Assembly: GCA_030424715.1 (NCBI GenBank)
Contig: JAUHWH010000005.1
Coordinates: 1-64,000, forward strand
Source of the DNA: Bdellovibrionia bacterium
Lineage (GTDB): Bacteria; Bdellovibrionota; Bdellovibrionia; Bdellovibrionales; JAGQZY01
DNA length: 64,000 bases
Direction of reading: 5' to 3'
Position numbers and translations under genes: made by a program. The notes beneath the pieces are model-generated. The model saw only the letters and a program-made list of their open reading frames with translations. It was not told the origin of the DNA and made no database searches. Shown here piece by piece: positions 2,567 through 30,457 of the stretch. The stretch's first letter is position 1. The number at the start of each line of letters is the position of its first letter.

Positions 2567-2614
2567 CTCTCATGACCTTTGTCCTGTGAAATCATTAATT
2601 ATTCTCGAGTGATA

Positions 2615-2622
2615 ACCGATAA
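2615..2622 (+). promoter_or_regulatory. Possible sigma-28-type -10 box upstream of the PEGA Ser/Thr kinase
   Basis: ACCGATAA matches 7 of 8 bases of the flagellar sigma-28 -10 consensus GCCGATAA and lies 18 bases before the GTG start. No good TAAA -35 element is seen about 15 bases further upstream, so this is tentative. Confidence 0.25.
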
Positions 2623-2640
2623 CTTGGTGTAGAGGACTCT

Positions 2641-7411: not shown

Positions 7412-9003
7412 AGAGTCTTTCCCTTCCCCGATTGGCAGCTACCGGCAATATCAATCTTGTAGTTGTCTAATTCGTCGAACCAAATTTCGCCTTGAAAAGG
7501 AAAGGTTAGCGTGTCTTGATCCTGACTGCCGGTGGTGCCCTGCTTACTGCGGGCTTGCATGTTTTTGGTGTCTTCGATCACTCGATCACTAAGGGCCAAC
7601 TGTTGAATCAACTCGGCCTCAACAATCTGCATTTTCTTTAGAACGCTTGAGATCTCTCCCACCTCTTGATTGGCCAAGGCTTTCACCCGATTGAGAGAGG
7701 CCGTGTAACTGTTGCGAGCCCTTCCTTCAATCGTCTTGCGGAACTTCTCCATTTTAGCCTGAAAGCCCACCTGTGCGGTGCCTTCGGACAAAGACTGGGA
7801 GTAAAGCTTTTTAGCAATCTCAGCCTCCTTTTCCATAAGAGCATGACGCTGAACCAAATAGAACAGGTTTTCATCTCGTGTGGAGTGTCGAGGCAAGTGT
7901 TGCCCGGCCTCGCCAAGAGCCGTCATCGTGGTTCGTTCTTCGGCGAGCTTGGCGAAGAGAGTTTTTACGGGCTCGCTTTGTGGGTTCTCTTTGAGACTCA
8001 ACAGGCGACTGGCCTTTAAACGAAAACGCTGACGAAACTCTTTTAACACCTGCGACACCTGTTGATAGTCACAGACCTTCAGGTTCGCCAAGCTGGCGAG
8101 GTAAAAAGCCTCTGGCCCGACGTCGGTTTGCAAAGCCGGCACCAGTAGAGTTTGGGTGTGGGCCAATGTGTTTTGCGGCTGTCCCAGGCGAAGCTCGGCC
8201 CAACCTCTTTCTTCGAGGGCTTCAAACCAGTAATCAGAAGCTTTGCCAATTTTTTTGTAGTACCGGATCGCCTGTGAAAGGTAGCCACTTTGGTAAAGCA
8301 TACGAGCGGCTGTCAAATTCATAAGATCTTTTGAAATCGGATTGTTCTCGTCAATCCCTTGCAGATGTTTTAAAAGTTTGGCGGCTTTCACCACCTCATC
8401 TTGCATTAATAGGGTGGTCACGTAGCGCCACTCGGTCCAGCTTCTCTCCCAAGTTTTCGAAGAGGTCTTTCTGAGGAGAGCCTCAATCTGTCCAATGGTT
8501 AAATCGGAGTCAAAGCGTCGCGCCGTCACCATCACTTCTGCAGACAGGCCAAACACCTCGGTCCATGCTGGCGACCACTGCACGTCTGTAAACGACCACA
8601 AACTCTCATTGGTTTGCATCAGGCCTCGCCACAGTCCTAACAGCTTTTTACTCACCTTTTGCGGGTTGGCCATAAACAAACTTTCCAATCCCGTCAGTCG
8701 CATACCATTTTTGTAGAGGAGGTAACCATAAAGAGCTCGCCCATCGTTTGAGCTGGCAAAAGAGGAGTTTTCAAAAGCCGAGGGCCATTGATAAAGCGCT
8801 TTTTTAACCTCTCCCTTTTCTAAAAACTGGAAAAAAATATTCTGCTCCGGCGAGCGCGAAGGTACAAGGTTTTGAAACACACTGCTTTTTTGTTCAATGT
8901 TCAAACCATCCATCTGCTTTTGATCGCCGTTGAGCACGTCCAACAAGTCGTCGGCTCCTGACTGAAAACAGAATAAAGTGAGAATAACGAATATTTTTAG
9001 CAT
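7408..9003 (-). CDS. Exported TPR-type repeat protein of the gliding-like cluster
   Basis: 531 residues from the ATG at 9003, chosen because it follows the upstream stop, has AAGGCGG before it, and starts a clear signal peptide (MLKIFVILTLFCFQSGADD); the frame extends to 9030 but would overlap the previous gene. The mature protein is almost all helical, with repeated W/Y/L-A-L patterns typical of degenerate TPR units (for example YYKKIGKASDYWFEALEERG), and ends in a coiled-coil-like stretch and a Gly/Gln-rich tail. It overlaps the next gene by 4 bases. Probable periplasmic scaffold that connects motor and outer-membrane parts. The family is not recognised more precisely. Confidence 0.75.
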   Translation of the reverse strand: MLKIFVILTLFCFQSGADDLLDVLNGDQKQMDGLNIEQKSSVFQNLVPSRSPEQNIFFQFLEKGEVKKALYQWPSAFENSSFASSNDGRALYGYLLYKNGMRLTGLESLFMANPQKVSKKLLGLWRGLMQTNESLWSFTDVQWSPAWTEVFGLSAEVMVTARRFDSDLTIGQIEALLRKTSSKTWERSWTEWRYVTTLLMQDEVVKAAKLLKHLQGIDENNPISKDLMNLTAARMLYQSGYLSQAIRYYKKIGKASDYWFEALEERGWAELRLGQPQNTLAHTQTLLVPALQTDVGPEAFYLASLANLKVCDYQQVSQVLKEFRQRFRLKASRLLSLKENPQSEPVKTLFAKLAEERTTMTALGEAGQHLPRHSTRDENLFYLVQRHALMEKEAEIAKKLYSQSLSEGTAQVGFQAKMEKFRKTIEGRARNSYTASLNRVKALANQEVGEISSVLKKMQIVEAELIQQLALSDRVIEDTKNMQARSKQGTTGSQDQDTLTFPFQGEIWFDELDNYKIDIAGSCQSGKGKTL

Positions 9004-9013
9004 AATTGCCGCC

Positions 9014-9691
9014 TTATAGTAGATAACCAAAAGAGACGCCCACGTTGGTGGTGTCTATATCACTCGCTCCACCAAAACGTTGCGCTTGATAAAATCTCTG
9101 TCGAATTTCAACACGTGTGGATAAATGCTGTGAAAGCCAAAGCCCCAGGCCAGCCCCCCAGCTGTATGTCTGGGTGTCGCCGGAGCTCAGCTGGATGTTT
9201 CCAAAGGAGAGCAGTCCGTAGACGTCAAACTGGGCCACACCCGCTCCAAAAAGGTTCACCTTACCGTAAATCGGAGCGTAGTTAAGAACGGCTTCGTATC
9301 CGGCTTCGGGTTGATCGAGGTCTGGGACAATTCGGTTGTCGTCGATTAAAAAACGTCCTTCTTCAGCCAACTGGTTGAAAGCAGAAAAATATGTGAGGCC
9401 AACAGCCCACCTTGGAGAAATATGAAGATGATAATCGAGAGACAACATCTGCGTGTTGAGAAAACTGTCACCTCCCACCACGTTGGCGTATCCCCCAGAG
9501 AATTCATGACGCCAGCGCTTGTCCACCACGCGGTTTTGCACCACCTGAACTTCTTTATCCGGACCAAGAACCTTGGCTCTGTTCATCAAAACATCGTTGC
9601 CACCCAAAGAATCAAAGTCTTTCAGGATGTCCGCTTGAGCGTGACGGCCCAACCATAGGACAATCAGTATCATAAAGGCTTTTTTCATCAT
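9014..9691 (-). CDS. Outer-membrane beta-barrel protein of the gliding-like cluster
   Basis: 225 residues with AAGGAG 6 bases before ATG at 9691. Signal peptide MMKKAFMILIVLWLGRHAQA. After a short N-terminal charged segment (DFDSLGGNDVLMNRAKVLG) the rest alternates hydrophobic and polar residues with aromatic belts (WRHEFSGGYANVVGG, SLDYHLHISPRWAVGLTYF), ending FGYLL, as in 8-strand barrels. The pattern resembles the outer-membrane beta-barrel family found in myxobacterial and Bdellovibrio gliding-type clusters. It overlaps the upstream lipoprotein gene by 4 bases, so translation is probably coupled. Likely outer-membrane anchor of the machine. Confidence 0.75.
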   Translation of the reverse strand: MMKKAFMILIVLWLGRHAQADILKDFDSLGGNDVLMNRAKVLGPDKEVQVVQNRVVDKRWRHEFSGGYANVVGGDSFLNTQMLSLDYHLHISPRWAVGLTYFSAFNQLAEEGRFLIDDNRIVPDLDQPEAGYEAVLNYAPIYGKVNLFGAGVAQFDVYGLLSFGNIQLSSGDTQTYSWGAGLGLWLSQHLSTRVEIRQRFYQAQRFGGASDIDTTNVGVSFGYLL

Positions 9692-10833
9692 GGCGCACTC
9701 CTTACAAGAATGTTCATTTCATGGGTCATGGTAGCCTGACTCTGTGCAGGTCCCCGACGGACTGTATTTGTTCCAATAATTTCAACTTTGGCATTACCCG
9801 AAGCCGCTGGAGCCCAGGTTAACGTACAATAAGCCACTCGTTGTCCATTTTTCTTGGTGGTTCGACAAACGCAGTCCATGCTGGCTGGTTTTTTAGAGCA
9901 AGTCGCATCCACCTCACCCCGATCGAGCGGGTCATATACGGAGAAGGTGTAATCAGACTCTTGCCCCTCGGTAAACTGCACCAATCTTTCCGCGACGACG
10001 ACGGGCTCTTTCGCCCGACTGTATATTGCGTAATTCACCGGGTAACTGCGAGAAGGCACACCCGAGATGGAATACACCACCAAGTCGAGGGCCACTCGTC
10101 GCCCCTGTCCAGAAAGGTAAAAATCGGTCGGCACATCTATGGCAAGCTCGAACTCCCACTCGTCCCTAGCGGGATTGTAAACCCCTTCTTTAGAGACATC
10201 GACAAATTGTGAGCCCACAGTGCTGGTTTTATAGGAGTCAAAAACGCGTAATCGAGGGCTGTACTCTTGCTCGGTGTCTTTCACTCGAACAGTTACCATT
10301 TTTCTTTCACCCGTGATGACATCGCCCCTCTTGCCTTGAAAACTCACCTCGACAATCTCTGGTATCTCGGCGTTCTGTGGGACCACATGAATTGTTAGGG
10401 GTCTTTTGACCGTCAATATGGTGCCTTCATAGGCTGTGTCGAAAGAGAGGTTAATGTTCTGAATCACGTTGGGCGCTTCCACCGGTACAAAGTCAAAATC
10501 AGGAGTGATGTAGATCGTTTTTGTAGCTTCGTCAAAACGAGCACCAGGAAATTTGTCTTGGAGGTCTGGAATCCGAATGGCGGCTAGGGTCACCTCTTTG
10601 TGACTAATCTCAGGCTTTATCACGATCTCAAGGGTGGCTCCCTCTCGCACGGTGTAGACATAAGGCATATCAAGAAAAAGTGACGATTGCTTAGGCGGAG
10701 GTATTTTGCCCAAAGTCGTTTCGGGTGGTACCGCGTTTTTGATGCGATCGTCTTCACCCTTTAAAGGATCTTTATCCCAACCGCTGTGGCAAGCACTTAA
10801 AGTCAAAACCATTAAAATCATCACTAGGCGCAT
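9688..10833 (-). CDS. Large lipoprotein of the gliding-like cluster
   Basis: 381 residues. The start at 10833 is chosen over the longer frame (10968) because AAGGAGGGG precedes it and it opens a lipoprotein signal with lipobox LSAC (Cys15). The mature part contains a proline-rich linker, then beta-rich stretches (PYVYTVREGATLEIVIKPE, RPLTIHVVPQNAEIPEIVEV) suggesting Ig-like or cadherin-like folds, and a small Cys cluster near the C-terminus (CSKKPASMDCVC and YCTL). No enzymatic motif is seen. It sits between the AgmX-like gene and the barrel gene and overlaps the latter by 4 bases, fitting an outer-membrane structural partner. Confidence 0.75.
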   Translation of the reverse strand: MRLVMILMVLTLSACHSGWDKDPLKGEDDRIKNAVPPETTLGKIPPPKQSSLFLDMPYVYTVREGATLEIVIKPEISHKEVTLAAIRIPDLQDKFPGARFDEATKTIYITPDFDFVPVEAPNVIQNINLSFDTAYEGTILTVKRPLTIHVVPQNAEIPEIVEVSFQGKRGDVITGERKMVTVRVKDTEQEYSPRLRVFDSYKTSTVGSQFVDVSKEGVYNPARDEWEFELAIDVPTDFYLSGQGRRVALDLVVYSISGVPSRSYPVNYAIYSRAKEPVVVAERLVQFTEGQESDYTFSVYDPLDRGEVDATCSKKPASMDCVCRTTKKNGQRVAYCTLTWAPAASGNAKVEIIGTNTVRRGPAQSQATMTHEMNILVRSAP

Positions 10834-10862
10834 GGCCCCTCCTTGATCACAAATTCTTTTCA

Positions 10863-12011
10863 TTAGCTCCGCCCCGTTCGCTTCAGTAAGAAGGGATAAG
10901 AGACCGGAACCTCTTGATTGCCTTCGGGTATGGGGAATTTCCAGGTTCGAAGGCGTCGTAAGATACAATCTTCAACTGTTTTGTTATTGAGCGAAGTGTT
11001 TTTCACTTTCGCAATTTTTACTCGCCCACTGCCGTCGATCACCCAGTTCACAGCCACACGCCCCGAAAGAGCGCTGTTGAGCTGCAATCCTTGCTCGTAG
11101 CAAAAGCGAATTTGCCCTAAGTTTCTGCGCACGACATCACCGATCAGGCTACTGTCGAGACCCCCATCAACGGAGGCCTCTTCGGGGATGGGAATCAAGG
11201 AGGCACCGGTCGCTCCAACAAGAGACACGGAACCATAGCCCGCCTTGCCGCCGCCTTTACCTTTGGTGCCGTAACCACCGCCGCCTTTTAAATTATGACC
11301 CGCACCGAGGGGCGCTGCCACCATTCCTTTGCTGTAAATGTTGGTCTGCACTCCACCACTGCCCTGGCTACCACCCAAGCCCGGGCCAGCCGTGGCCTTC
11401 ACCGCCCCGAGATCAAGTCCACCTTTTTGATTGCTCTTCGCCAGTTGCCCAAGGGCCGCTAAAGCACCCCGACGCTTCCAGCCTTTGCGTTTGGCATTGG
11501 GGCTGATTTTTTGAGGTTTCGTTCGATTCAGGCTGACGGTCTGACGATTGCTGGTTTTAGGAATAGCCAACTTCCGTTTTACCACTTTCACGATCTCACG
11601 CTTCTTCTCTTCGACCACCTCTTCGGCGATCTCCTGAGTAGGCGCAAAAACGTCCGAAATCAGATATCCCGACAAGAGGTAAAAAAAGATCGCAAACAAA
11701 ACGGCCTTGCGAGCCGGGCCGAAATCGGTTTCGTTTATCACTTCAGTGGGAGCGGCGACGGCATCGGCGTCGCTTAACTCTAAGTATCCCCCGGACTCTA
11801 AAGGGATGCGACCCGCGCTCAATTCATCACCACTGGTTTCTTTGATGATTTGAAAAGGGATCTGAGCTTTCTCCATTGGCCCAAGAGAACTCAAGACCTC
11901 TAACCGTTTAGTGTCTTTTCGGAAAACCGTCCATATTTTATCAGGAGACGTCCATGGGAACACACGGACAACCTGCCCGCCGCTATTGTGAAGAACTAAA
12001 CTCTTTGCCAT
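10863..12011 (-). CDS. AgmX/PglI-type energy-transducing protein (TonB-C-like)
   Basis: 382 residues from ATG 12011 (GAGG upstream; the frame's TTG at 12023 would overlap the previous stop). Order: N-terminal about 95 residues of beta-type cytoplasmic domain, one membrane segment (about 99-121), a Glu/Lys-rich stretch, a long Gly/Ala/Lys low-complexity linker (GGGGYGTKGKGGGK) and a C-terminal domain of about 95 residues. That domain has IRFCYEQGL, GRVAVNWVIDGSGRV and CILRRLRTWKFP, the signature of the AgmX/PglI C-terminal family related to TonB-C. It carries the paired cysteines usual in the family. The family is named after adventurous gliding proteins of Myxococcus. Likely spans the periplasm and couples the TolQ/R motor to outer-membrane partners. 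Confidence 0.85.
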   Translation of the reverse strand: MAKSLVLHNSGGQVVRVFPWTSPDKIWTVFRKDTKRLEVLSSLGPMEKAQIPFQIIKETSGDELSAGRIPLESGGYLELSDADAVAAPTEVINETDFGPARKAVLFAIFFYLLSGYLISDVFAPTQEIAEEVVEEKKREIVKVVKRKLAIPKTSNRQTVSLNRTKPQKISPNAKRKGWKRRGALAALGQLAKSNQKGGLDLGAVKATAGPGLGGSQGSGGVQTNIYSKGMVAAPLGAGHNLKGGGGYGTKGKGGGKAGYGSVSLVGATGASLIPIPEEASVDGGLDSSLIGDVVRRNLGQIRFCYEQGLQLNSALSGRVAVNWVIDGSGRVKIAKVKNTSLNNKTVEDCILRRLRTWKFPIPEGNQEVPVSYPFLLKRTGRS

Positions 12012-12019
12012 CCTTGACC

Positions 12020-12274
12020 TCAATTCCTTTTTGCCGACTTCTTAATTCTATCTTTAAAATCTTTTCGCACTTCTAAAAGAGCATCCAGAACCTTATCTTG
12101 TTCGACTGTCACCACAGCTTCATCTGAGAAGTGATGCTTACCCTGAACCAAAATTTCGTCAAAGGAAACCTCACGACTGTCTTTAGTCTTGGGCTTTGTT
12201 GACTCCGATTGTGGAGCCGCGAACGCCGGGCTTGTCCATACTAGGGTTGAAAAAAACAAAGTCCATGTTTTCAT
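12020..12274 (-). CDS. Small exported protein of the gliding-like cluster (84 aa)
   Basis: Signal peptide MKTWTLFFSTLVWTSPAFAA is followed by a Lys/Ser/Thr-rich linker and a short conserved-looking core VSFDEILVQGKHHF, then a basic helix. It overlaps the large TPR gene by 4 bases and precedes the AgmX-like gene by 8 bases, so it is surely part of the same operon. I do not recognise the family. Small size and location between the TPR and AgmX proteins suggest a periplasmic adaptor. Confidence 0.7.
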   Translation of the reverse strand: MKTWTLFFSTLVWTSPAFAAPQSESTKPKTKDSREVSFDEILVQGKHHFSDEAVVTVEQDKVLDALLEVRKDFKDRIKKSAKRN

Positions 12275-15219
12275 AAAGATCTCCCTTTAGATTCAAATCC
12301 TTGGTCCACTAACTTTAGGCGGCTGTTCAAATAAATAATCATGGGCTTATACCCCCGCTTGGTCTCCAGACTGATTAGGTTGCGCAATGCGGTTTTGCTC
12401 AGTGGTGAGCTCTTCACTTGCTGCCTCGCGGTCTCGAGAAGCGCTAGCGACGGCATGGTTTTTTTGACTTCTTGCCGGGCCACGAGATCAAATCGAGCCG
12501 CCCGCTCAGGAGTCGAAACCGCTTTCATCTTCTCAATTTGAGGTTTCAGCAAGGCCTGCAGCTCAACCGGAGCTTTGTGGTAATTCGCATAAACCTGATC
12601 AATGGCGGCCTCGTTTTGCCAAAGTTCATCAATCTTAAACTGGATCTGGTCAGCCTTCTCTTTGTAAGGCGCTGCCTGCTGACTCAATAAAGACAAGTAC
12701 TGTTGCTGCTCTTCGGTCGTTAGGTCTTTGGGAGTTGGCAACCCGAGGAGTTCGTTGAAAAACCGTAGATACTGCTGTTGCAACTCTGTTAAGAATAAAG
12801 TTTGGGTCAACCAATCCTGAGTTTCGGTCGCTTTCGCGATGGTCTTTTCAAAACGAGTGATTAAGTTCATCCGACGTTGCAGAGATTTTGTGATCCGATG
12901 GGTACGCCCGTCAAGGCTGTGCTTTTTCAAACGAGCAATATCTCGCTCACCTTGGTCGATAAGAAAACCCCGCTGCAGGACGCGAGCCGCTGGCGTCGAA
13001 GCCAGGCCATTGGCCTTTAGCAACGCGGCGATTTGTTTTGAATTTTTACGACCGCTGTAAATCTCCATCAATAACCCAGCAAGAAAGTTGGGGTTCTTGC
13101 TCAAATAAGGGCGGCACGGCTTTTGGTTGGAGCCGTAGGACTTGGCCTCTTTCACAAGCTTTACGCAGATAGAGAAAGCCAGCTCAGGATCAGGCTCCCC
13201 CTTGAGGTAGCGATAGTAATGTTGGGACGAGGGCTTTTCAGCGAGATCGGCCAATCGCGCGAGTTCTAACCACTTTTTCGTATTGAGCTTTTTGTAGCTG
13301 GCGTAGGCCTCATCAAAGTTCAACTGTAGTTCACTCAACCACACCTTGTTTTCGAGACCAAAGGTTCTCTCCTCGGCGGATAAGTTTTTTAGCTGCAAGA
13401 AGGAACGTAAGGCCCCATCCATCTCCCCAAACTTTTTGAGCTTCCGGGCAAGAATCACCTTGTTCTTGTAGTAGGTTTTTGCCTTGTCTGGATCAGCGGT
13501 CGTGACATCAAAACGGTTTAGGGTGTTCCAAGCCTCAAGATCGTTAGTATCACTGGCCGAAAGAGCTGCCGTTTGCGACAAGACTGATTGGCCGGCTAAG
13601 CTCATAAATCGCTTCCGCTTGGTTGGAAAAAGTCTCGCAAACTCACTAGCCCAGCGTTCAATCAGCAAGTCATTTTTGGCTAGCACCAAGCCATCGAGGG
13701 CCATTTCCGCGGCCTGCAGCTTCAAGCGTGCCGGCGTGCTGGGGTGACTGGCCAGAGTTTTGAATTCTTCCGCGGCAGCCTGGTAATCCTTGGCATCGTA
13801 TTTTTGCTGCGCCATTTGATAACGAATCTCTGTGGACTTGGTTTTCTGTGGACTTCGCTCCAAGTAAAATTTCTGGGAGGCCAGTAGCCAGTTTTGGTTT
13901 TTCGCCAATTCCGCAATTTCAATACGGCGAACCAAAAGACTTTCTTGGTTTTCTTTTGTCTTCGCCAATTTATAAGCCGCTTGGTTCCACCGGTAGGCCT
14001 TGTCATAATCTTTGGCCTGTGTCGCCGCTTGGGATGCTAGTTCGTAGGCCTCTCGGTCCGTCTTCTCGACGGTGAAGTAACCGCCGTAGGCTTCGAGTAA
14101 ACTCTCTGATGGGTTCTTTTTCTCAGAGCGATTCCAGTCAAAGACCAGGCGACGGATGCGTTTTTTCAACTCATCACACTGCCGCTGATCCTTGCACCCC
14201 TGTAAACTGGTCCAATTGCGAAAGGCGCGCTTTAAATAAGGTAAAATTTCTTGCTTTTGACTGCCAGTCATCTTGAGACTTGCTAAGTAGACAAGGCCTT
14301 CCATGCGGATCTGTGGGTCCGCGGTCTCAGCAACCACAAGCTCCCAGGCTTGCTGGGCCTGCTGCACCCGGCCGAGTCGCTCCAATTCTTTGGCAAGAAA
14401 AGAGATGTTCTCGATACGAGTCTTTTCGGGACTCAAAGCATAGACTTTTTTAATGGCAGCGATGTCGATCTGTGAACTGTGGGCCATAAAAACGGTGTAG
14501 TCTTTGGCGACCTCGGATTTGAAGTCTTGATCGACATTCACCATGCTCTCACCCCCACGGGTGAGAAGCTTCGGACTCCTCAATATTTGCTCAAGCCCCT
14601 CAACAGCGGCTGTTATTTTGCCTATATTGTAATGACACCATGCTAAACGAAACGAGGCCAACCCGCGACGAGTGAAACTCTCTGAGGCCAAGGCTTTCTG
14701 ATAAAAAACCTTAGCTGAAGCAAAGTCTCGTTGCTTGAAATAGATCTCGGCCAATGAGAACTGAGCCTCCACGGCGCCGCGACCCGATGTCGAAGCGATC
14801 ACCTTTTTGTAAAAGGAAATGGCCTTATTGTTTTCTCCCAGAACCTCATATATGTGTCCCACCTGCACCATCACATTTTGACGGGCTTCGCCTTTAAGGG
14901 TGGGCAAGGCGTATTCGTAATACTCCAAGGCTTTTTGGCGATCCGCCAGACCATTATGGCACTCGATACAACCTTTTTCTAGCTCGGCTTTTTGCTGCAG
15001 GCGGCCTCTCTCGGCATGCAAATCAGCCAAGCGCAAAGTGATTTTGTTTTTGGTGGGATTGCCCTCCGGCAGCTTTAAGAAAACGTTGGTCAACTTATTG
15101 ATCAAGAGGGTCTCGGTGTCGCCAGCCGCTGCGCTGACAGGCCCAGCAACCACAATAAGTCCAAGACAAAGACTGAAAGCCACCGCAACAGACATGAATG
15201 TGTTTTTTACTTTTATCAT
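12271..15219 (-). CDS. Very large exported TPR protein (982 aa) of the gliding-like cluster
   Basis: Signal peptide MIKVKNTFMSVAVAFSLCLGLIVVAGPVSA, then many TPR-like units across the first 650 residues (for example ALEYYEYALPTL, AISFYKKVIASTSG, AKVFYQKALAS, AQQAWELVVAE). A C-x2-C-H motif (GCIECHNG, about residues 83-90) near the first repeat looks like a single c-type haem binding site or a zinc site. The C-terminal third is helical and coiled-coil like. AGGAAG lies 9 bases before the ATG. It starts 6 bases after the ExbD-like stop. Role inferred: periplasmic scaffold of the motor complex, comparable in position to TPR proteins of Myxococcus Agl/Glt loci. Confidence 0.8.
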   Translation of the reverse strand: MIKVKNTFMSVAVAFSLCLGLIVVAGPVSAAAGDTETLLINKLTNVFLKLPEGNPTKNKITLRLADLHAERGRLQQKAELEKGCIECHNGLADRQKALEYYEYALPTLKGEARQNVMVQVGHIYEVLGENNKAISFYKKVIASTSGRGAVEAQFSLAEIYFKQRDFASAKVFYQKALASESFTRRGLASFRLAWCHYNIGKITAAVEGLEQILRSPKLLTRGGESMVNVDQDFKSEVAKDYTVFMAHSSQIDIAAIKKVYALSPEKTRIENISFLAKELERLGRVQQAQQAWELVVAETADPQIRMEGLVYLASLKMTGSQKQEILPYLKRAFRNWTSLQGCKDQRQCDELKKRIRRLVFDWNRSEKKNPSESLLEAYGGYFTVEKTDREAYELASQAATQAKDYDKAYRWNQAAYKLAKTKENQESLLVRRIEIAELAKNQNWLLASQKFYLERSPQKTKSTEIRYQMAQQKYDAKDYQAAAEEFKTLASHPSTPARLKLQAAEMALDGLVLAKNDLLIERWASEFARLFPTKRKRFMSLAGQSVLSQTAALSASDTNDLEAWNTLNRFDVTTADPDKAKTYYKNKVILARKLKKFGEMDGALRSFLQLKNLSAEERTFGLENKVWLSELQLNFDEAYASYKKLNTKKWLELARLADLAEKPSSQHYYRYLKGEPDPELAFSICVKLVKEAKSYGSNQKPCRPYLSKNPNFLAGLLMEIYSGRKNSKQIAALLKANGLASTPAARVLQRGFLIDQGERDIARLKKHSLDGRTHRITKSLQRRMNLITRFEKTIAKATETQDWLTQTLFLTELQQQYLRFFNELLGLPTPKDLTTEEQQQYLSLLSQQAAPYKEKADQIQFKIDELWQNEAAIDQVYANYHKAPVELQALLKPQIEKMKAVSTPERAARFDLVARQEVKKTMPSLALLETARQQVKSSPLSKTALRNLISLETKRGYKPMIIYLNSRLKLVDQGFESKGRSL

Positions 15220-15225
15220 CTTTAT

Positions 15226-15705
15226 CTACTTCCTGATTACGGCAAAGTTAATGTCACTGTACCCCGCATGGCCACCCGCCTGAATAACGTGGCTCAAAAG
15301 GTCGTAGGCCTGTCGACGATCGGCTTGAATGGTCATCGCCCCAGTGAACTCGGTGTCTGGATAATACTTCTCCCAGTTTTGCTTCACATCGAGCAGTCGC
15401 TTCACCAATTGCGTGGTTGGGATCTCTTCTTCTTCTATATAGAGTTTGTCTTTTTCAACTTTTACGACAACGTTGCGCTCAAGCTCGATCGCTTTGGCCG
15501 CGGCTGGCAGCTCCATACCTTCACTCATATAAAGCAATTCTCCGGTCGTTGAAAAATTCACCAAAAGATAAATCACTAACACGGAGAAAGTATCCACCAG
15601 CGAGGTCAACATGACCGTGGCTGCGAGATTTCTTTTACCTTTGCCCTTAACACCAAATCCTGCCCCCGATGCGAGTCCGGCTTGGCCCAGTGGTCGATTA
15701 AACAT
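15226..15705 (-). CDS. ExbD/TolR-type motor protein 2
   Basis: 159 residues. A Gly/Lys-rich cytoplasmic N-terminus leads to one membrane helix (about 31-50) with the key acidic residue Asp38 in TSLVDTFSVLVIYLL, then a periplasmic domain with VVVKVEKDKLYIEEEEIP and the C-terminal YDLLSHVIQAGGHAGY motif usual in TolR/ExbD. Proton flow through the ring of the neighbouring ExbB/TolQ protein depends on this aspartate in the family. Two different TolR-like genes after one TolQ-like gene is the arrangement of Myxococcus aglRQS, which supports a gliding-type motor. Confidence 0.87.
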   Translation of the reverse strand: MFNRPLGQAGLASGAGFGVKGKGKRNLAATVMLTSLVDTFSVLVIYLLVNFSTTGELLYMSEGMELPAAAKAIELERNVVVKVEKDKLYIEEEEIPTTQLVKRLLDVKQNWEKYYPDTEFTGAMTIQADRRQAYDLLSHVIQAGGHAGYSDINFAVIRK

Positions 15706-15727
15706 AGATCCCCCTGTTCATTTCGCT

Positions 15728-16192
15728 TTACAGCGGTGTGACACCAAGGTCTTGAATGCCTTGTTCACGAAACACATCCATCACTTGAATAATGTCTTCA
15801 AACGGTGTTTTTTCAGCGGGCCGAATCAATGCCATTGAGAGGTCGCTGTACGCACCGGTTAACTTTCCGAGATAGTTCGCAAGCTCTACAAAATCTGGCT
15901 TACCATCCACTCCCGCGATTTTACTGTTGCCAAAAGTCTTTACGAATTTGCGAGGAGCATGACGAAGCTTAAAGGCCAACTCGCCTTCCTTATCCATAAC
16001 GACCCACATTTCAGGCTTTGGCTTGCCGGAGGCCGCTTGACCACCAACAGCCTGCTTTACATTCATGGACCCGATTTGAATCCAAATCGTGGTCAAAAGA
16101 AGAAAGCAGATACAAACGGATAAGAGCGAGATAAACGCCACTAAGTCCACTTCGGTGTTCACCGCTTTTTTGGTTTTTTTGCTTCCAAACAC
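15728..16192 (-). CDS. ExbD/TolR-type motor protein 1
   Basis: 154 residues. Short basic N-terminus, a membrane segment (about 14-40) starting with Asp16 in EVDLVAFISLLSVCICFLLL, and a periplasmic domain ending in the MDVFREQGIQDLGVTPL motif of TolR-type proteins. It lies 12 bases after the ExbB-like gene and 22 before the second ExbD-like gene. Together the three form a proton-conducting 5:2-type stator by family knowledge. Confidence 0.87.
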   Translation of the reverse strand: MFGSKKTKKAVNTEVDLVAFISLLSVCICFLLLTTIWIQIGSMNVKQAVGGQAASGKPKPEMWVVMDKEGELAFKLRHAPRKFVKTFGNSKIAGVDGKPDFVELANYLGKLTGAYSDLSMALIRPAEKTPFEDIIQVMDVFREQGIQDLGVTPL

Positions 16193-16204
16193 TGGGCGCC
16201 TCCC

Positions 16205-16894
16205 TTAGCGGTTCGCAGTGTTGATGTCGGCACGACTGGCGCGGGTCTCCAAAGGGTTAAATGAATAACTCAACCAGTTGTAAGCTTTTAAGGCCGCCTG
16301 ATTTAAATCATCAGTCAATACCTGCGAGCGATTTGCTAAAATTGAATAGATAAGGAGCGTGGGAATCGCCACGATCAAACCAAAAGCCGTGGTGTTCATG
16401 GCCTCTGAGATACCGTTAGAAAGCAACGTCGCCTTCTCCATAGGGTTGGCGTTACTGACCGCCGCAAAAGATTTGATCATCCCTGTGATCGTTCCAAGCA
16501 GACCAGCCAAGGTGGCCACGTTAGCAATCATGGCTAGAAAGCCCGTACGTTTTTCAATCTGCTCGGTTTCTTCAAGAATGATCTCTTCCATTCGACCTTG
16601 GATTTCATCTTTACCCCCCATGTTCATCGCGGCTTCGGTGCCGGCAGCCACGGTGCGATTGATCGGTTCGTCAGCATTTTGCTGAGTCGCAGTCATAACC
16701 GTTTCAAGGTTGCCCTGTCGGATACCCTTTTCAAAATTCAAGACGTTTCTTTTTTGGGTGGGTTTGCGTCGGATATAAAGCGCCATCACTCTTTCAAGAA
16801 CAATTCCTAGAGCAATAATTTGTAATCCTAGTATGAACCACATCCATACTCCACCTGTTGTAAATGCTTCTGAAAGCGAATTAAAAAAGCTCAC
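16205..16894 (-). CDS. ExbB/TolQ/MotA-family motor channel protein (AglR-like)
   Basis: 229 residues from GTG at 16894, selected because AAGGAGG lies 6 bases upstream; the longer frame to 16927 has no site. Three membrane helices: WMWFILGLQIIALGIVLERV (near the start), FLAMIANVATLAGLLGTITGMI and TTAFGLIVAIPTLLIYSIL. The signatures TLAGLLGTITGMI and the Thr-Thr-Ala-Phe-Gly-Leu motif are diagnostic of ExbB/TolQ. First gene of the minus-strand operon that continues to 6383. The 200 bases upstream contain a possible -10 TAGAAT but no confident promoter. Confidence 0.9.
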   Translation of the reverse strand: MSFFNSLSEAFTTGGVWMWFILGLQIIALGIVLERVMALYIRRKPTQKRNVLNFEKGIRQGNLETVMTATQQNADEPINRTVAAGTEAAMNMGGKDEIQGRMEEIILEETEQIEKRTGFLAMIANVATLAGLLGTITGMIKSFAAVSNANPMEKATLLSNGISEAMNTTAFGLIVAIPTLLIYSILANRSQVLTDDLNQAALKAYNWLSYSFNPLETRASRADINTANR

Positions 16895-17095
16895 GCAATC
16901 CTCCTTAATATGATGGACATGTTTCAAGACTTAAATCCATGCCTTTACTATCTGGAAAAAATCGTCCCATTCACCGGAAAGCCAGTCAAACAAAAGCTTA
17001 ACCGAATTCTAAAGAAGCGTGATCTGTTGTAAGCTTACAGAGCGTGTAAGATGTCTTACTTTTGATTTAAGATTGGAGAGCCCTAGTGTTTTTGA

Positions 17096-23688: not shown

Positions 23689-24633
23689 TTGAAAACACCC
23701 AAGGTCACAGCTATCGCCACACTCATCAGTCTGCTTTTTGTAGCCGCAACGGCAGTTGCCGAGACCACTTCAGCACCTCTTGTGGAATCTTCGAGCCCTG
23801 TGCCTGATGTACAGACCTGCGGAACTCTCAAGACAACCAGCCAAGCGCGCATTCATATTCAAGCCCGGGGGCAGAAATCACGCCACCACTATCCCTCCAA
23901 CAAACTTTTGAACATTGCCCGCATCTCTGGAGATTGGGCTATGGTGGAATGGCCCTCTGGAAGTGGTTGGATCCACAAATCGAAATTTGATGGAGCGAAA
24001 TTTGATTCCGCTAAACAACGCTGTATCAGTGGCATTGCCAACCAGCACCTCTACCCCACTCGAGGGTCTATTGGCTCATCGGGTTCGCTCGACACCGCAA
24101 TAGCTGCACAGACCTCGACAAGCATTCGAGACAATGGATTAACAGATCAGTATAAAATGCTTCGTCGTTTTTACGCCGAAAAGAATCGTAAAGAGCGTTA
24201 TGTCTTTATCAACAAGCTCACCAGGGACCGATCAAAATTCACCACCTATGTGGTCGATATGAAAACCAGCCAGGTCAAAGCCAGCTTTGACTCTCTCCGC
24301 GGGTATGGTGGTATTGGCTGTGGTGGGTCCCAAACACGACCCGGTATCTTTCGTTTGCACTCGACCTCAGGCACCGGTGCCTCTCGCAAACCTTGGTGGG
24401 GTAACAATTTTAAATATCAGGTGATGCAGAACATTGGTGGTCACAGCAAAAAATGGGGTGGTCAAGGCTGCGGACTTAATTCACAAATTGTTGCCCACTC
24501 CAACAAGAACATGCGTGGTCGCTCCTCTAGGGGGCGCCGATTTAGTGCTGGCTGTTTCGTGACTTCTCCCGAAATATTCAAAGAATGGACGGAAAAAGTC
24601 GCTGGAGACGCTCTGATCTATAATGTGAAATGA
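23689..24633 (+). CDS. Exported L,D-transpeptidase-like protein with SH3-like N-terminus
   Basis: 314 residues. TTG start at 23689 with AAAGGA 6 bases upstream. The N-terminus is a signal peptide (MKTPKVTAIATLISLLFVAATAVAE), followed by an SH3-like region (about 40-105; GDWAMVEWPSGSGWIHKSKF). The C-terminal half carries KYQVMQNIGGH, VAHSNKNMRGR (His270) and the catalytic-type motif S-x-G-C (S286-C289), matching the YkuD-related murein L,D-transpeptidase family. Probably acts on peptidoglycan in the periplasm; the exact reaction (3-3 crosslinking, lipoprotein linking or D-amino acid exchange) cannot be told. Convergent with the FHA gene, 8 bases apart. Confidence 0.8.
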   Translation: MKTPKVTAIATLISLLFVAATAVAETTSAPLVESSSPVPDVQTCGTLKTTSQARIHIQARGQKSRHHYPSNKLLNIARISGDWAMVEWPSGSGWIHKSKFDGAKFDSAKQRCISGIANQHLYPTRGSIGSSGSLDTAIAAQTSTSIRDNGLTDQYKMLRRFYAEKNRKERYVFINKLTRDRSKFTTYVVDMKTSQVKASFDSLRGYGGIGCGGSQTRPGIFRLHSTSGTGASRKPWWGNNFKYQVMQNIGGHSKKWGGQGCGLNSQIVAHSNKNMRGRSSRGRRFSAGCFVTSPEIFKEWTEKVAGDALIYNVK

Positions 24634-24641
24634 ATGTGGCA

Positions 24642-27557
24642 TTACAGAAATTTTTCTTTGTTCTTTTGAAAAAAAGTCTTTTTGAACTTCATAATCTTTT
24701 TTAAATGACTTGGCTTTTTCAATGTCTTTTTCAACTGAGTCATAAAAAGCTTCTCAATCTCGAGTAACCTCTTTTTACCCTCTTCCACAAAGTTGCCATT
24801 GATGCTGGCTTTTGCTGCGTTCAACTCGCGAATCAAGGTGGCTTCTCGAGCAATAAAAGGAACCAGCTGAGTCTCGTTGAGTCGAAGTTCGTTGGCAAAG
24901 TAGTCCTGCAGGGCGAGAATCCACTGTTTACGATACTCACTATCGAGCTCAACTTGCACATAGCCGGTGGTGTACATCACCCTCTCAGTGTAGGTGTCAA
25001 AATACTTGTCCACTTGTTTGGGGCGGAACTCTTTTTTGTAAGAATTCTCTTTTTGCTTCTGGGCCATCTTCTGTTTGGCGTCTTTGTCGGCTTGAGTCGC
25101 GATGTTGCGACCCGAGTCTTTCGCCACCTTTTTCATCGAAGGGAGGTAAATGAAGAATAAAAGAAGGGCAATAAAGCCCAGAACGCCGTAGACGTAAAAC
25201 TTTTTAACTTTGGATTGGGCCAGGCTGGGGTCAATGTCAGAATAATTGTCAACGCGGTAAAGGTCTTCGTCAACCTCTTCCAATACAATGGCATTGATCG
25301 AACGTTCAAACATAGTCCCCACCACATCAAGAGCCTCCTGGTCTTTTAAGTAGGGTGTCATTCTCACGCGCAGAACATCGTGCAGTTCTTTCTTTAACTG
25401 AATCGCCTGCACTCGGTATCTTTCTTTTAGCTCTTTCTCAAAACTCTGTCGCTGTTTTTCAATACTGGCTAGGGCCTGAGTCCGCAAACCTCGAATTTCT
25501 TCTTCTGTTTGTTGCTTTGTTTTTTTTATATCAGCGTGAAGTGTGGCAAGGTCGCGATCTCCCGTTTTCTTGGCCTTCTGAACAATCTTGGCGGCCTCTC
25601 GCTGAGCCTTGTCCATTACCCTTGCTTTCTCGGCTTCTGCCTGAGCTTTGACTTCTTGGCAAATTTTATCAAACTCAGCTTGCGAGCTATCTTTAATGTC
25701 AGAGGCTTTCTTTCTCGCTTCTTTAACCTCCGCTTGTGCAATAAGATGGGCTTCATCGACACTCTTTTGCGCTTCTTGTTTCGCCTGATTAATAATCTCT
25801 TGAGCCTCGGCTTGGGACTCAGATAACAGAGAGGCCCCCTCTTTCTCCCATTCTCGGCGGAGCTGTTTTTCTTCTTTGGACAGCAATTGGCGCTTGGCCT
25901 CACACTCTTGTTCTGCCGCCGCCTTGAGGGACGCTGAAACCTCAAGGGCTTCTTCGTTGAGTCTTTGAGCCTGAGCTGTTGCCTTGTCGATGGCCCTGTT
26001 CGCTTCGTCTTGGGTTTCTTGTTGCAAGGCCTTCATCTCTCTAACAAGACTCTCTTTCTCCTGCTGGGCATCGGCGACCATGGAAAGCGCTTTCTCTTTT
26101 GCTTTAGCAATGTTCACCGAAATTTCTTTTTCAGCCCGCTGTCGCAGTTTCTCGATACTGTTTGCCGATTCTCGACTCGCCTCCGCTAACCGTTGTTGCT
26201 GCGATTTCTCATCGCGCTCCATCTGGGCCTGTCGCTCTTCATTGAGAATGGTGGTTTTCTGCAGTTCGTCTTTCGCTAGAGAAACCTTGTCTCGTAGGGA
26301 TTCAAGCTCCAATGCCGACGCCTTGGCTTGTGCAACATTAGCATCGTGCTCTTTTCGCTGAGCAAGACTCTCTTTTTCAAGATGTTCGACCGTGGCTTTT
26401 CTTTCTCGAATGTCACGGTCTAAGTTTGCAACACTTTCCTCGAGAGTCGCCTGTTTTGACTCTAGCTCGGGAACTCTCACCTCGAGGACAGACAACGCCG
26501 CTGAGGCACGCTTCTCTAAATCGGCAACTTCACCGATTAAGTCCTGCTGCTTTTTCTGGGCCTCGATAGCCGAAGCTCTTGAATCTGACGTCGTGGTTAG
26601 GTTGAGTTCATGATCTTTTTTAAGTTGAGCGATCGAATCATTGAGGGCTTCCACTTCTTGCCTTCGTGAAGCCAAAGTTTGCTCGATGGTTTCAGACTCT
26701 TCAACCAATCGCTCTTTTTTGCTGACGGCCTCCGCAATTATGCTGTCGAACTCTTCATGAGCCGCTTTTCGAGTTCGCTCGAGTTCTTCGTCGCCTTGAC
26801 GATGAAGGTCCTCGGCTTTGCGTTGAGCCTCTTGCACGATGGACTCCGCCTGATCTTTTTTTTCTTTGGTCAGAATAAACATTTCTTTTTGGACCAGAGA
26901 TTTTTGAATTTCGATTTCCCTTTTCGCCTTCTGAAGAATCGCCTCTGCTTTTTTCTGGGCATGCAACACTTCGTTGTCATGCTTATTCTGACCATCCGGG
27001 GATTGTTTCGAGCCTCCCCAAAGCGGTAACTTGCCCCACTTACCATTGGAATCGTCGACATTTGGCGAACGCAGCACTTTTGCTGGAGCACTGGATTTTG
27101 ATGGCTGCTGAACCTTTGCCTTCTTCTTAGGCTGTGGCGCCGAAGGTTTAGCGGCAGCCGCACGGTCTTTCTGAGGTGGGTTTGTCAAAGGGCGCTCGAG
27201 ACCGAGCAAACGATCTTCTGAGCTTTCCAGTTCTTCTCTTTGCACAATGGCCTTGATTTCAAATCGGCATTCTTTTTTTGCGCCCAAAAAGAGTTCGTTG
27301 CCCTCAATGTATTCAAAAGCCACATTGGGTTTTAATTGATGACCGTTGAGATAAGTTCCATTGGTTGAACCGAGGTCAGTGACATAAATACGATCACGCT
27401 TGAACTCGACGCGGACATGCTGGCGACTGAGGATGTGAGAAGATATTGGAATATCGCATTCGGCCGATCGACCAACAACAAAAGACTCGGCTTTGAGATA
27501 AGCCTCTTTCTCTTTATCGTCCATTTTGTATTTAACAAAAAAATGTTTAAACACCAT
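24642..27557 (-). CDS. FHA-domain coiled-coil membrane protein
   Basis: 971 residues from ATG 27557 (AGGTGA 7 bases upstream; the frame extends to 27677 without signals). N-terminal FHA domain (about 10-95): FVVGRSAECDIPISS, SRQHVRVEF, LGSTNGTYLNG, the residues that bind phosphothreonine. A Pro/Lys-rich linker is followed by about 600 residues of unbroken Glu/Lys/Gln/Ala coiled coil with repeated EAQ/EAEA heptads, then one membrane helix (VYGVLGFIALLLFFIYLPSM, about 765-785) and a basic exported tail of about 180 residues. No enzyme motif. Downstream of the MotB/MotA-like pair with a hairpin in the gap. Likely a phospho-dependent scaffold at the inner membrane, possibly read-out of the PEGA kinase at 2641 or a similar kinase. 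Function unknown. Confidence 0.82.
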   Translation of the reverse strand: MVFKHFFVKYKMDDKEKEAYLKAESFVVGRSAECDIPISSHILSRQHVRVEFKRDRIYVTDLGSTNGTYLNGHQLKPNVAFEYIEGNELFLGAKKECRFEIKAIVQREELESSEDRLLGLERPLTNPPQKDRAAAAKPSAPQPKKKAKVQQPSKSSAPAKVLRSPNVDDSNGKWGKLPLWGGSKQSPDGQNKHDNEVLHAQKKAEAILQKAKREIEIQKSLVQKEMFILTKEKKDQAESIVQEAQRKAEDLHRQGDEELERTRKAAHEEFDSIIAEAVSKKERLVEESETIEQTLASRRQEVEALNDSIAQLKKDHELNLTTTSDSRASAIEAQKKQQDLIGEVADLEKRASAALSVLEVRVPELESKQATLEESVANLDRDIRERKATVEHLEKESLAQRKEHDANVAQAKASALELESLRDKVSLAKDELQKTTILNEERQAQMERDEKSQQQRLAEASRESANSIEKLRQRAEKEISVNIAKAKEKALSMVADAQQEKESLVREMKALQQETQDEANRAIDKATAQAQRLNEEALEVSASLKAAAEQECEAKRQLLSKEEKQLRREWEKEGASLLSESQAEAQEIINQAKQEAQKSVDEAHLIAQAEVKEARKKASDIKDSSQAEFDKICQEVKAQAEAEKARVMDKAQREAAKIVQKAKKTGDRDLATLHADIKKTKQQTEEEIRGLRTQALASIEKQRQSFEKELKERYRVQAIQLKKELHDVLRVRMTPYLKDQEALDVVGTMFERSINAIVLEEVDEDLYRVDNYSDIDPSLAQSKVKKFYVYGVLGFIALLLFFIYLPSMKKVAKDSGRNIATQADKDAKQKMAQKQKENSYKKEFRPKQVDKYFDTYTERVMYTTGYVQVELDSEYRKQWILALQDYFANELRLNETQLVPFIAREATLIRELNAAKASINGNFVEEGKKRLLEIEKLFMTQLKKTLKKPSHLKKIMKFKKTFFQKNKEKFL

Positions 27558-27667
27558 ATCTGCGTCACCTATTCCACACTCCTTTTCGGTGTAATTATTT
27601 GATTTTTTTAATGTTTTAGAAAACTTTTTGCAAAGACTAGACAGAAGTCGATGCCATAAGACACAAA

Positions 27668-27689
27668 TAGCCAGCACAAAGGCTGGCTA
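27668..27689 (-). terminator. Hairpin between the MotA-like and FHA genes (attenuator or weak terminator)
   Basis: TAGCCAGC and GCTGGCTA pair perfectly (8 bp) around ACAAAG. On the minus strand it is followed by TTTGTGTCTTAT, a weak T-rich tail, 32 bases past the MotA-like stop. It could reduce read-through to the FHA gene. Confidence 0.6.
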
Positions 27690-27721
27690 CAAGGAGAATC
27701 GATGGGTTCGCAGGTTGCGAG

Positions 27722-28690
27722 CTACGAGACCCGAGTGAGTTTGCGTTGCTTTTTACCGAGCACCACGTCTTCGCTGAGAGCTTGTTCGGCTAGGACCTCA
27801 TCAGGGTTCCTATTTTCGTCGAAGCCATCAATCTGCTCAGGCAATTCGTTGTCGGAGCTCAGGTGCCAAAGAGCATCCAAAGCCGCTTCCAGACGATCCA
27901 CGGCTGAAACAAACACCTTCTCCGGAGCCATGGCGGCATTAAAGAACGACATGACTACAGAAAGTACGATCCCTACTAAAGATGTGCTCATTGAGAAGGA
28001 AATTTTAAAGAGAAATTCATCCATTATTTTGTTGGCCGCATCAATGTTTCCGAGATCCATCGTTCCTAGCAGTGGAAGAGCCTTCATGATCCCTAAAAAA
28101 GTTCCGAAAACCCCCAATACGATAAAAACGCCGGGTAGAATATTGATCACATCATTGATCCGAGAACTCGGGAAAAGACCTAAAACTTTGCTAAAACTAG
28201 GGTTCCGGGCAAAAGCCTTTTTGGTGATGCTCATTAACTTAGGATGATTGGAGTCATTAAACTTAATATGTCTAAGAGGCTTTAAAATATCATGAACGAA
28301 AAAAGCAGCCCCCTGCTTGACCAGGAACAAGCGATCGCCCACCGTCATAACAAAATCTGGTTTTCGACGTTTCATGGCATATCGGACTCGAAAAAGCTCA
28401 TAATAAGTTTTCTCCATCAAGCGTTTCACGATCATATAAAAAGACACAGTTGATGCTGGATTTCTTTCATCGAGAAAGTGGTCGACACGCTTCTCAAACT
28501 CTTTAGCAAACCAATCTTGACGACGGACGGTGTAGTAAATAAGACCGCGAAGAATAACGGCTCCTACAAAGAGAATTGTCATTGTCGGAATCAACCAATA
28601 GGTGGCAAAATTTAAGAGCGATTCGAGGAGTGTCATTTCTGCCACGACGGTTTCTGTTACTGTTGCTGGATCGATCGCTGGGGTTTCCAT
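27722..28690 (-). CDS. MotA/ExbB/ZorA-like ion-channel motor protein
   Basis: 322 residues. Three membrane helices (about 27-53, 182-205 and 228-252) with a large cytoplasmic insertion between the first two and a C-terminal tail of about 70 residues. The second helix has VFIVLGVFGTFLGIMKAL and the third FSMSTSLVGIVLSVV, matching the G-x-F/L-G-T-x-x-G and Thr/Ser-rich signatures of MotA/TolQ/ExbB-type stators. GGAGAT lies just before the ATG at 28690. It starts 12 bases after the MotB-like gene, so the two form a subunit pair. The length and topology resemble ZorA, but no ZorC, ZorD or ZorE gene is near. Confidence 0.8.
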   Translation of the reverse strand: METPAIDPATVTETVVAEMTLLESLLNFATYWLIPTMTILFVGAVILRGLIYYTVRRQDWFAKEFEKRVDHFLDERNPASTVSFYMIVKRLMEKTYYELFRVRYAMKRRKPDFVMTVGDRLFLVKQGAAFFVHDILKPLRHIKFNDSNHPKLMSITKKAFARNPSFSKVLGLFPSSRINDVINILPGVFIVLGVFGTFLGIMKALPLLGTMDLGNIDAANKIMDEFLFKISFSMSTSLVGIVLSVVMSFFNAAMAPEKVFVSAVDRLEAALDALWHLSSDNELPEQIDGFDENRNPDEVLAEQALSEDVVLGKKQRKLTRVS

Positions 28691-28702
28691 TGAGATCTCC
28701 TT

Positions 28703-30457
28703 TTAGTTTTCCATGTTAAATTTTATGACCACTCGCTGTGATTTTTTGCAGTCAAACTTTTTACAATATTGTTTGTGACTCATATTAGCCACTTGCCTTT
28801 TGTCGACGCCCTCGGCAAGAAAGCTTCGCCCAGTAACCTTCACCATCGGGAGGATGTCTTCCTGATGGGGATAGCGCATTTTCTCGGTATCAAAAATGTA
28901 ATCAAATATAGACCGGGCACGGTAGTAACTCAGATCAAGATTGTAGTTAACTGCCTCTTTATTGTCGGCTGTTAGGCTGACTGGATTGACATATTTCCCT
29001 TGATAGGTTGGCGAAGCATAACCGATAATTTCAATGGATTTGATCTGGCTGGCGGCCTTTTTGTCAGAGAAAAGTGTTTTCGAGTAGGCCGGCATGAACT
29101 TTTTGAGAACCCGCTCCATGCCAGGCTTTACATTGGCTTTGCCCGTATCGAAGTACTCATCACCGAACTCGATCACGACTTCGCCAGATTTCTCATCAAC
29201 CTGCGCCTTCAACCCAGAACGCTGCAGGTTCTTTTTCATATCATCAATTAGCTTTTTCTTGGCGTTGGCCAGCTCTTTCATACGCTTTAAATCAGAAGAC
29301 AGTTGCTGACGCTGCCCCTTGAGGTTGGCATTTTGGGAGGCCAGCGCCTGAGACTTTGCCTCGGCCTGGGCCTGGGCTTGCTGGGTCTGCTCAAGACGTC
29401 CTTGCAGATCTTGCGCCTTGGACTCCATTTTTTGAATCTCATTAGCCAATCGGGCCTCTCTTTGTTGCACTTGCTTTTGAAACTCTTTTTGTTGAGCCGC
29501 TTTGGCTCGAGCCGACAATTGCTGCTTTTGTAACTTGGATTGGAAGGCTTGTTTCTCTTTAGCCATCTTCGCCTGAAAGGATTGCCGAAGGTTCGATATT
29601 TTCTGAGTCACGTCATGCTTCTCAGAAACCAGTGTTGCAATGTCTGACTTTTGCGAAGCAATCGTTCTCTCTGCCTGCGCCAGGTTCTGACTGACCCTCT
29701 CGATCTTTTCCTTACTCTGCTCTATAATTTGAGCAGCCACCTGATTTTTCTGCTTTAATTTCTTGATTCTCTGACTATTTGCCATTTTCAGCCGCTTGAC
29801 TTGAGCCTGCATCTTTTTCTTTGAAATTTTTCTTTGCTTGTACGACTTTCTCAATTGTTTGATCTTTTGAGTCAACGATGAATTCAAGCGAGTGATTTTT
29901 CCGTTGATTTTCTTAATCTCTTTTTGCTTTCTAACCACGGTGCTCTCGAGATCTTGGATTTGCCCCTGTTGTTGATCAATGGTTTTGAAGTTCTTTTTTA
30001 TGGTCTGGTTTCTGCGCTCGATACTCACGCTAGATAAAATATTCGAGTTGATAATATTTCTTATCATCCTTTGATATTTATTGAGAGCGATCTCTTTCTT
30101 TTCATTCTCTTCAGCAGCCTGTCGTAACTCGTCTTTTTCTCGCTTCGCATCTTCCTGCAGAAGATCGAGTTTACTCATCAACTCTTCGTAGTTCGCTTGC
30201 TCCGACTGATTCGAACGGCTCAAGTAGTCATCTTTCATGGTATTATAGACCCGAATTTCTTCTAGAAGAGCATCCCGCTCTCTGACTATCTTTTGATATT
30301 CCGCGTGACTCTTGACGTGACTGGTTCCTGAACGAACACTGGCGACAACGTAAAGAAGCAAAAAGACTAGGGAGAGAACCATAAATAGGTCCGAATAAGT
30401 CGCCCAATGAGAGCCACCCTCTTCACCTTTTTTAATTTCATCATAGTCAAAAGACAC
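28703..30457 (-). CDS. MotB/ZorB-like protein with giant coiled coil and OmpA-like C-terminus
   Basis: 584 residues from GTG 30457, chosen for GAGGAGA just upstream and for agreement with MotB-like N-termini. Short cytoplasmic tail, then one membrane helix (about 20-38) with Asp23 in WATYSDLFMVLSLVFLLLY, the position of the proton-binding aspartate in MotB, ZorB and ExbD. Residues about 45-420 are a coiled coil very rich in Lys and Gln. The C-terminal 150 residues are OmpA/MotB-like (VVIEFGDEYFDTGKANVKPG, IEIIGYASP, LSYYRARSIFDYIF, QRVVIKF), a peptidoglycan-binding fold by family knowledge. A coiled coil this long between plug and peptidoglycan domain is unusual: MotB has about 50 residues there. 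It is the first gene of a three-gene minus-strand unit. Confidence 0.82.
   Translation of the reverse strand: MSFDYDEIKKGEEGGSHWATYSDLFMVLSLVFLLLYVVASVRSGTSHVKSHAEYQKIVRERDALLEEIRVYNTMKDDYLSRSNQSEQANYEELMSKLDLLQEDAKREKDELRQAAEENEKKEIALNKYQRMIRNIINSNILSSVSIERRNQTIKKNFKTIDQQQGQIQDLESTVVRKQKEIKKINGKITRLNSSLTQKIKQLRKSYKQRKISKKKMQAQVKRLKMANSQRIKKLKQKNQVAAQIIEQSKEKIERVSQNLAQAERTIASQKSDIATLVSEKHDVTQKISNLRQSFQAKMAKEKQAFQSKLQKQQLSARAKAAQQKEFQKQVQQREARLANEIQKMESKAQDLQGRLEQTQQAQAQAEAKSQALASQNANLKGQRQQLSSDLKRMKELANAKKKLIDDMKKNLQRSGLKAQVDEKSGEVVIEFGDEYFDTGKANVKPGMERVLKKFMPAYSKTLFSDKKAASQIKSIEIIGYASPTYQGKYVNPVSLTADNKEAVNYNLDLSYYRARSIFDYIFDTEKMRYPHQEDILPMVKVTGRSFLAEGVDKRQVANMSHKQYCKKFDCKKSQRVVIKFNMEN

Follow-up and report, generated by a model that had tools for sequence, protein, structure and literature searches.

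Three open reading frames lie in a row on the minus strand of the window, the whole 64,000-nt stretch of DNA that was analysed, in the order MotB*, MotA* and an FHA coiled-coil protein, and the ORF list agrees with the original prediction on their number and place. MotB* (28703..30457, 584 aa) combines one membrane helix carrying a proton-site Asp with a helical stalk and an OmpA-like end. Its ORF reaches back to TTG 30532, while the best start is GTG 30457, which has AGGAGA ahead of it, and from this start the predicted numbering of the Asp as D23 (codon 30389..30391) is correct. After a gap of 12 bases follows MotA* (27722..28690, 322 aa), starting at ATG 28690 with AAGGAG ahead of it, a ZorA-like three-helix motor subunit that lacks the long ZorA tail. 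The third gene is taken as 24642..27677, from GTG 27677, giving a protein of 1011 aa whose true start is uncertain, the first ATG being at 27557. The side of the membrane to which each protein part is assigned below follows from homology and domain type.

The motor subunits were placed by profile scores. Hydropathy gives MotB* one membrane helix and MotA* three (residues 33-51, 184-202 and 237-255), the number that had been predicted, and MotA* ends about 65 residues past the last of these. Against Pfam, MotA* finds MotA_ExbB only weakly (15.1 bits, under the 22.9 cut-off), while its PADLOC matches are to ZorA only (best 1e-7), and ZorA models match all 20 aligned MotA* homologues. A MotA* profile run against PDB sequences returns the ZorA chains 8vvn (1e-8), 8qyh, 8qyy, 8qyk, 8qyd and 8vvi, the sole match outside ZorA being weak and unrelated (E 0.19). 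With the same profile two ZorA-like proteins of the phylum reach 1e-11, and the eight other MotA/TolQ/ExbB proteins of the same genome score 6e-4 or worse. MotB* matches the ZorB1 model of PADLOC at 2e-31, and a fold search of the PDB with its structure model gives just one significant hit, type I ZorB (8vvn_A, E 4e-6, probability 1.00); in Pfam it has a weak MotB_plug match and none to PF02472, the ExbD/TolR family. By profile and fold searches, the MotA*/MotB* pair adjoins ZorA/ZorB, not MotAB, ExbBD or TolQR. The curated NCBIfam cut-offs for Zorya are missed widely, with 27.8 bits vs 100 for ZorA and 34 vs 400 for ZorB2. The notion of a motor without relatives falls, its sequence and fold neighbours being ZorA and ZorB, and of the ExbB/TolQ signatures read in MotA* the weak MotA_ExbB match stands, but the protein is nearer to ZorA than to ExbB/TolQ by profile.

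Comparison with the known systems follows the same lines. The type I and II ZorAB complexes (PDB 8vvn, 8vvi and 8qyd; PMC11890865) share with this pair a three-helix A subunit, the GTF and Ser channel motifs, an Asp in the single membrane helix of the B subunit and a ZorB-like end. However, Zorya ZorA has a long cytoplasmic tail that is missing from MotA*, ZorB lacks a stalk where that of MotB* runs to about 370 residues, and Zorya carries ZorC, ZorD or ZorE, none of which is recognised adjacent here, the third gene being instead an FHA gene or, in the sister operon described below, a cNMP-binding one. TolQR and ExbBD resemble the pair in the three membrane helices of MotA* and its weak MotA_ExbB match, but MotB* is not ExbD-like and there is no adjacent TonB or TolA partner. 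Flagellar MotAB likewise forms an A/B gene pair, and MotB* has the weak MotB_plug match and the OmpA-like end; flagellar MotA, however, has four membrane helices, whereas MotA* has three hydrophobic ones, is nearer to ZorA and stands without flagellar neighbours. Large periplasmic domains are reported for non-flagellar relatives of MotAB in a survey that regards ZorAB as a remote homologue (PMC12505986).

The putative channel residues are conserved. MotB* D23 is invariant in 38 of 38 aligned homologues, and MotA* T197 and S237 are invariant in 20 of 20; for ZorAB, packing of the Asp against a ring of Ser/Thr is described (PMC11890865). As judged from these alignments, the pair has the trait of a 5:2 motor, namely a conserved Asp in the B helix with Thr and Ser in A. 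At the other end of MotB*, residues 415-584 (28706..29215) form an alpha/beta fold in the AlphaFold model, in keeping with the predicted OmpA-like end, but this end has diverged: the window protein falls short of Pfam OmpA, to which just 12 of the 38 MotB* homologues rise at E 0.01. The domain carries a G[YF]ASP-type sequence (GYASP in the window protein), the invariant residues S482, L509 and R513, and two invariant cysteines, 565 and 570. Peptidoglycan binding by ZorB II requires H141 and S143 (PMC11890865), and the spacing of these two residues would fit the GHASP motif of the sister clade, on our own reading without a computed alignment.

Between these two conserved ends lies the stalk (residues 42-413, 29219..30334). 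In every one of the 38 homologues its base, from D23 to K121, is 98-99 residues long. The OmpA-like segment 415-482 likewise keeps to 66-67 residues, while the stretch between the base and this segment varies in length. In the segment from K121 to 211, eight of the ten distinct lengths are equal modulo 7, an agreement with a chance of about 4e-5 if the lengths are independent. For two further stalk segments, 25 and 26 of the 38 homologues share the same length modulo 7, counts that include related sequences. A segment whose length changes in steps of seven indicates that the predicted MotB* coil is a real, register-keeping coiled coil, which is support beyond composition. At the usual rise per residue, a straight rod of 370 residues would be about 55 nm long and would exceed an ordinary periplasm. 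The suggested reach across the periplasm fared less well where a straight coil is meant, as AlphaFold gives three helices of about 97 residues and the length varies widely between species. In the model (mean pLDDT 76, pTM 0.45), helices extend up to 81 and over 115-209, 213-311 and 316-413, and the turns between the stalk helices lie near partly conserved motifs, a KISKK-like one and LSA. If the stalk folded as a hairpin, the lengths of its segments might compensate for one another; across the 38 homologues there was no clear correlation (0.11 to 0.22), so neither a rod nor a folded bundle is favoured by this comparison.

The third protein has the parts that had been read in it: an FHA domain, a long coil, one membrane helix (residues 827-845, 25143..25199, by hydropathy) and a tail. 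Its FHA domain (residues 57-120, 27318..27509) matches PF00498 at 4e-16 with 59.6 bits against a cut-off of 20.7, and GR, SR.H and NGT motifs are read in the sequence, with R70, S84, R85 and H87 nearly invariant. Both the score and these binding motifs assign it to the FHA family. The tail (residues 880-1011, 24645..25040), probably periplasmic, is a helical domain with an AlphaFold pLDDT mostly above 90 and no PDB match below E 2; it is conserved in homologues, being present in 61 of the loci having at least 5.5 kb of downstream DNA. Complete homologues range from roughly 700 to 1400 residues and are poorly conserved outside their ends, with a mean column identity of 14% over the full length. 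The FHA domain is the one feature of the trio that points to the proposed kinase control. The genome holds three Pkinase matches, one of them inside the window, and a kinase source for an FHA signal thus exists. The match within the window is a serine/threonine kinase with a PEGA domain (2641-4530, plus strand), a possible source of FHA signals.

To count operons, loci were taken from the best 80 MotA* matches in the genome collection, 79 of which have enough DNA. MotB* lies directly upstream of MotA* in 78/79 loci, and an FHA protein directly downstream in 74/79. Of the five loci without a downstream FHA call, the tail domain is still present in two, the sequence stops 910 bases beyond MotA* in a third, and the remaining two (L060 and L072) have other genes in the FHA position. 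Nearly all of the best 80 loci are titled Bdellovibrionota or unclassified Proteobacteria, and the full trio occurs in B. bacteriovorus kdesi (L112, NZ_CP102930.1). The three genes therefore co-occur in other genomes, as predicted, and the trio is a standing operon in Bdellovibrionota. One locus in a MAG titled Thioalkalivibrio (L092) is on a contig that is probably misbinned, since its MotB* and MotA* agree in length and spacing with those of a Bdellovibrionales MAG (L093) from one and the same sampling series. A MotA*-type match is present in 148/291 genomes of the phylum, a figure that includes the weaker sister clade. The trio itself is patchy: G001, a genome of the same genus, lacks it, also between recN and ftsZ. 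Its flanking genes change from one genome to another. With neighbours compared by eye and by window homology, neither flagellar genes nor tonB were seen beside it and no Zorya effector was recognised there, in line with the original prediction, and no flagellar genes occur in its recurring neighbourhood.

A sister form of the operon (family f18, with matches near E 1e-35; loci L169-L172, L175 and L200-L219) begins with a long-coiled MotB, continues with MotA and ends with a small protein (about 155 residues) bearing a cyclic-nucleotide-binding domain. Here, MotB is mostly 559 to 1057 residues long, with one of 1750. The third protein matches PF00027 at E 1e-14 to 2e-21 in the five that were scanned, and with a model built from those five the gene is found in 25/27 sister loci, once on the opposite strand. 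Two genomes (G180 and G230) have a close MotA* match together with a weaker one at the level of the sister clade, so that both operon forms may coexist in some genomes. Since the FHA and cNMP proteins are both signal readers, the third place in the operon appears to be a control input. The sister operon and its cNMP third gene are new in this analysis; for the trio, no describing paper was found in the open-licence literature, which is weak evidence of absence.

On balance, we consider it somewhat probable that these genes encode a ZorAB-like stator with its own cytoplasmic sensor. By homology, five MotA* subunits would surround the two membrane helices of MotB*, and ions passing D23 where it faces T197 and S237 would turn the MotA* ring. 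The OmpA-like domain at the stalk end would hold MotB* outside, presumably through anchoring to peptidoglycan, and the conserved, fixed-length stalk base would sit just above the membrane. A phosphothreonine signal could be read by the FHA protein, whose coil, membrane helix and helical tail may connect this input with the ring and the base of the stalk; contact of an FHA membrane protein with a motor A subunit has a precedent in GltG and AglR (PMC3169522). With a cNMP-binding protein in the same place in the sister clade, the common plan would be a motor gated or loaded from the cytoplasm. Points against this account are the low conservation of the FHA protein outside its ends, the few loci that lack an FHA protein and the patchy distribution of the trio. 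Our guess is that the likeliest output would be mechanical work or control in the cell envelope, not flagellar rotation, with gliding or prey entry and defence as other possible outputs. More tentatively, the two forms might make up an envelope motor class of their own, apart from both defence and motility, with a conserved stator core, a species-specific stalk length and exchangeable cytoplasmic sensors (phosphothreonine through FHA in one clade, cyclic nucleotides in the other). The trio would add a standing lineage of ion-driven rotary motors that is neither flagellar nor standard Zorya, and one that occurs where genetics exist, including B. bacteriovorus. Should the motor be gated by the third gene, the two forms of the operon would illustrate how a single stator can be connected to different signals from the cytoplasm and which roles ZorAB-type motors may have beyond phage defence.

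The closest relatives being ZorA and ZorB, the trio could alternatively be a divergent Zorya-type phage defence, in which the FHA or cNMP protein replaces the effectors or relays an alarm to them. Patchy presence and a changing genomic site are often seen in defence genes, divergence of the FHA protein is rapid, and standard Zorya is nearly missing from the phylum (0/291 genomes over the ZorA_1 cut-off), so the trio could be its local form. Against this, Pfam finds no nuclease or other effector domain in the third proteins, the 322-residue MotA* has no ZorA tail, and a MotA*-type match occurs in about half of the sampled genomes. Phages, plasmids and viral contigs also gave no trio match in a limited test of one query per collection. 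We regard this account as possible but rather unlikely.

A module that supplies force for gliding on surfaces or for entering prey seems less probable still. By analogy with Myxococcus, where the FHA membrane protein GltG interacts with the motor subunit AglR (PMC3169522), the FHA protein would couple the motor to an envelope machine; AglRQS with GltG thus provides a precedent for an FHA membrane protein partnering an ion-driven motor. Bdellovibrio glides and has several sets of that core complex (PMC3169522), and the named predatory-type genomes with the trio all belong to Bdellovibrionota. However, AglQ and AglS are short and ExbD/TolR-like while MotB* is ZorB-like, and GltG ends in a TonB-like domain where the FHA protein of the trio has its long coil and a helical tail for which no fold relative is known. 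Furthermore, with flanks that are not conserved, the trio has no gliding genes as constant companions, and the literature examined links no predation phenotype to its genes. As for an alternative flagellar stator, FliF is found in 262/291 genomes of the phylum, but four genomes (G035, G206, G256 and G030), some of them draft assemblies, have the trio without a FliF match, MotA* is nearer to ZorA than to MotA, and flagellar genes are absent beside the trio, which makes this reading very improbable.

The surroundings of the ZorAB-like operon in the window also merit description. Membership of the ftsZ cell-division cluster was rejected, since relatives carry the trio next to other genes and in G001 the ftsZ cluster occurs on its own. 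The gap from recN to the phosphoesterase and ftsZ genes is a variable site, occupied in three relatives by one gene that differs each time (L197 in G001, 2149-3567; L198 in G003, 7404-9146; L199 in G002, 9255-10121). Tail to tail with the FHA gene lies an exported protein (23689-24633, plus strand) with a weak L,D-transpeptidase-like match (E 0.04), which was not found beside ftsZ in G001. Elsewhere in the window, a TolQ/ExbB-type gene, two ExbD/TolR-type genes and a 982-aa TPR protein stand in a row on the minus strand (12271-16927, with 9014-12023), with a beta-barrel protein nearby, and this set resembles the Agl-Glt gliding core complex.
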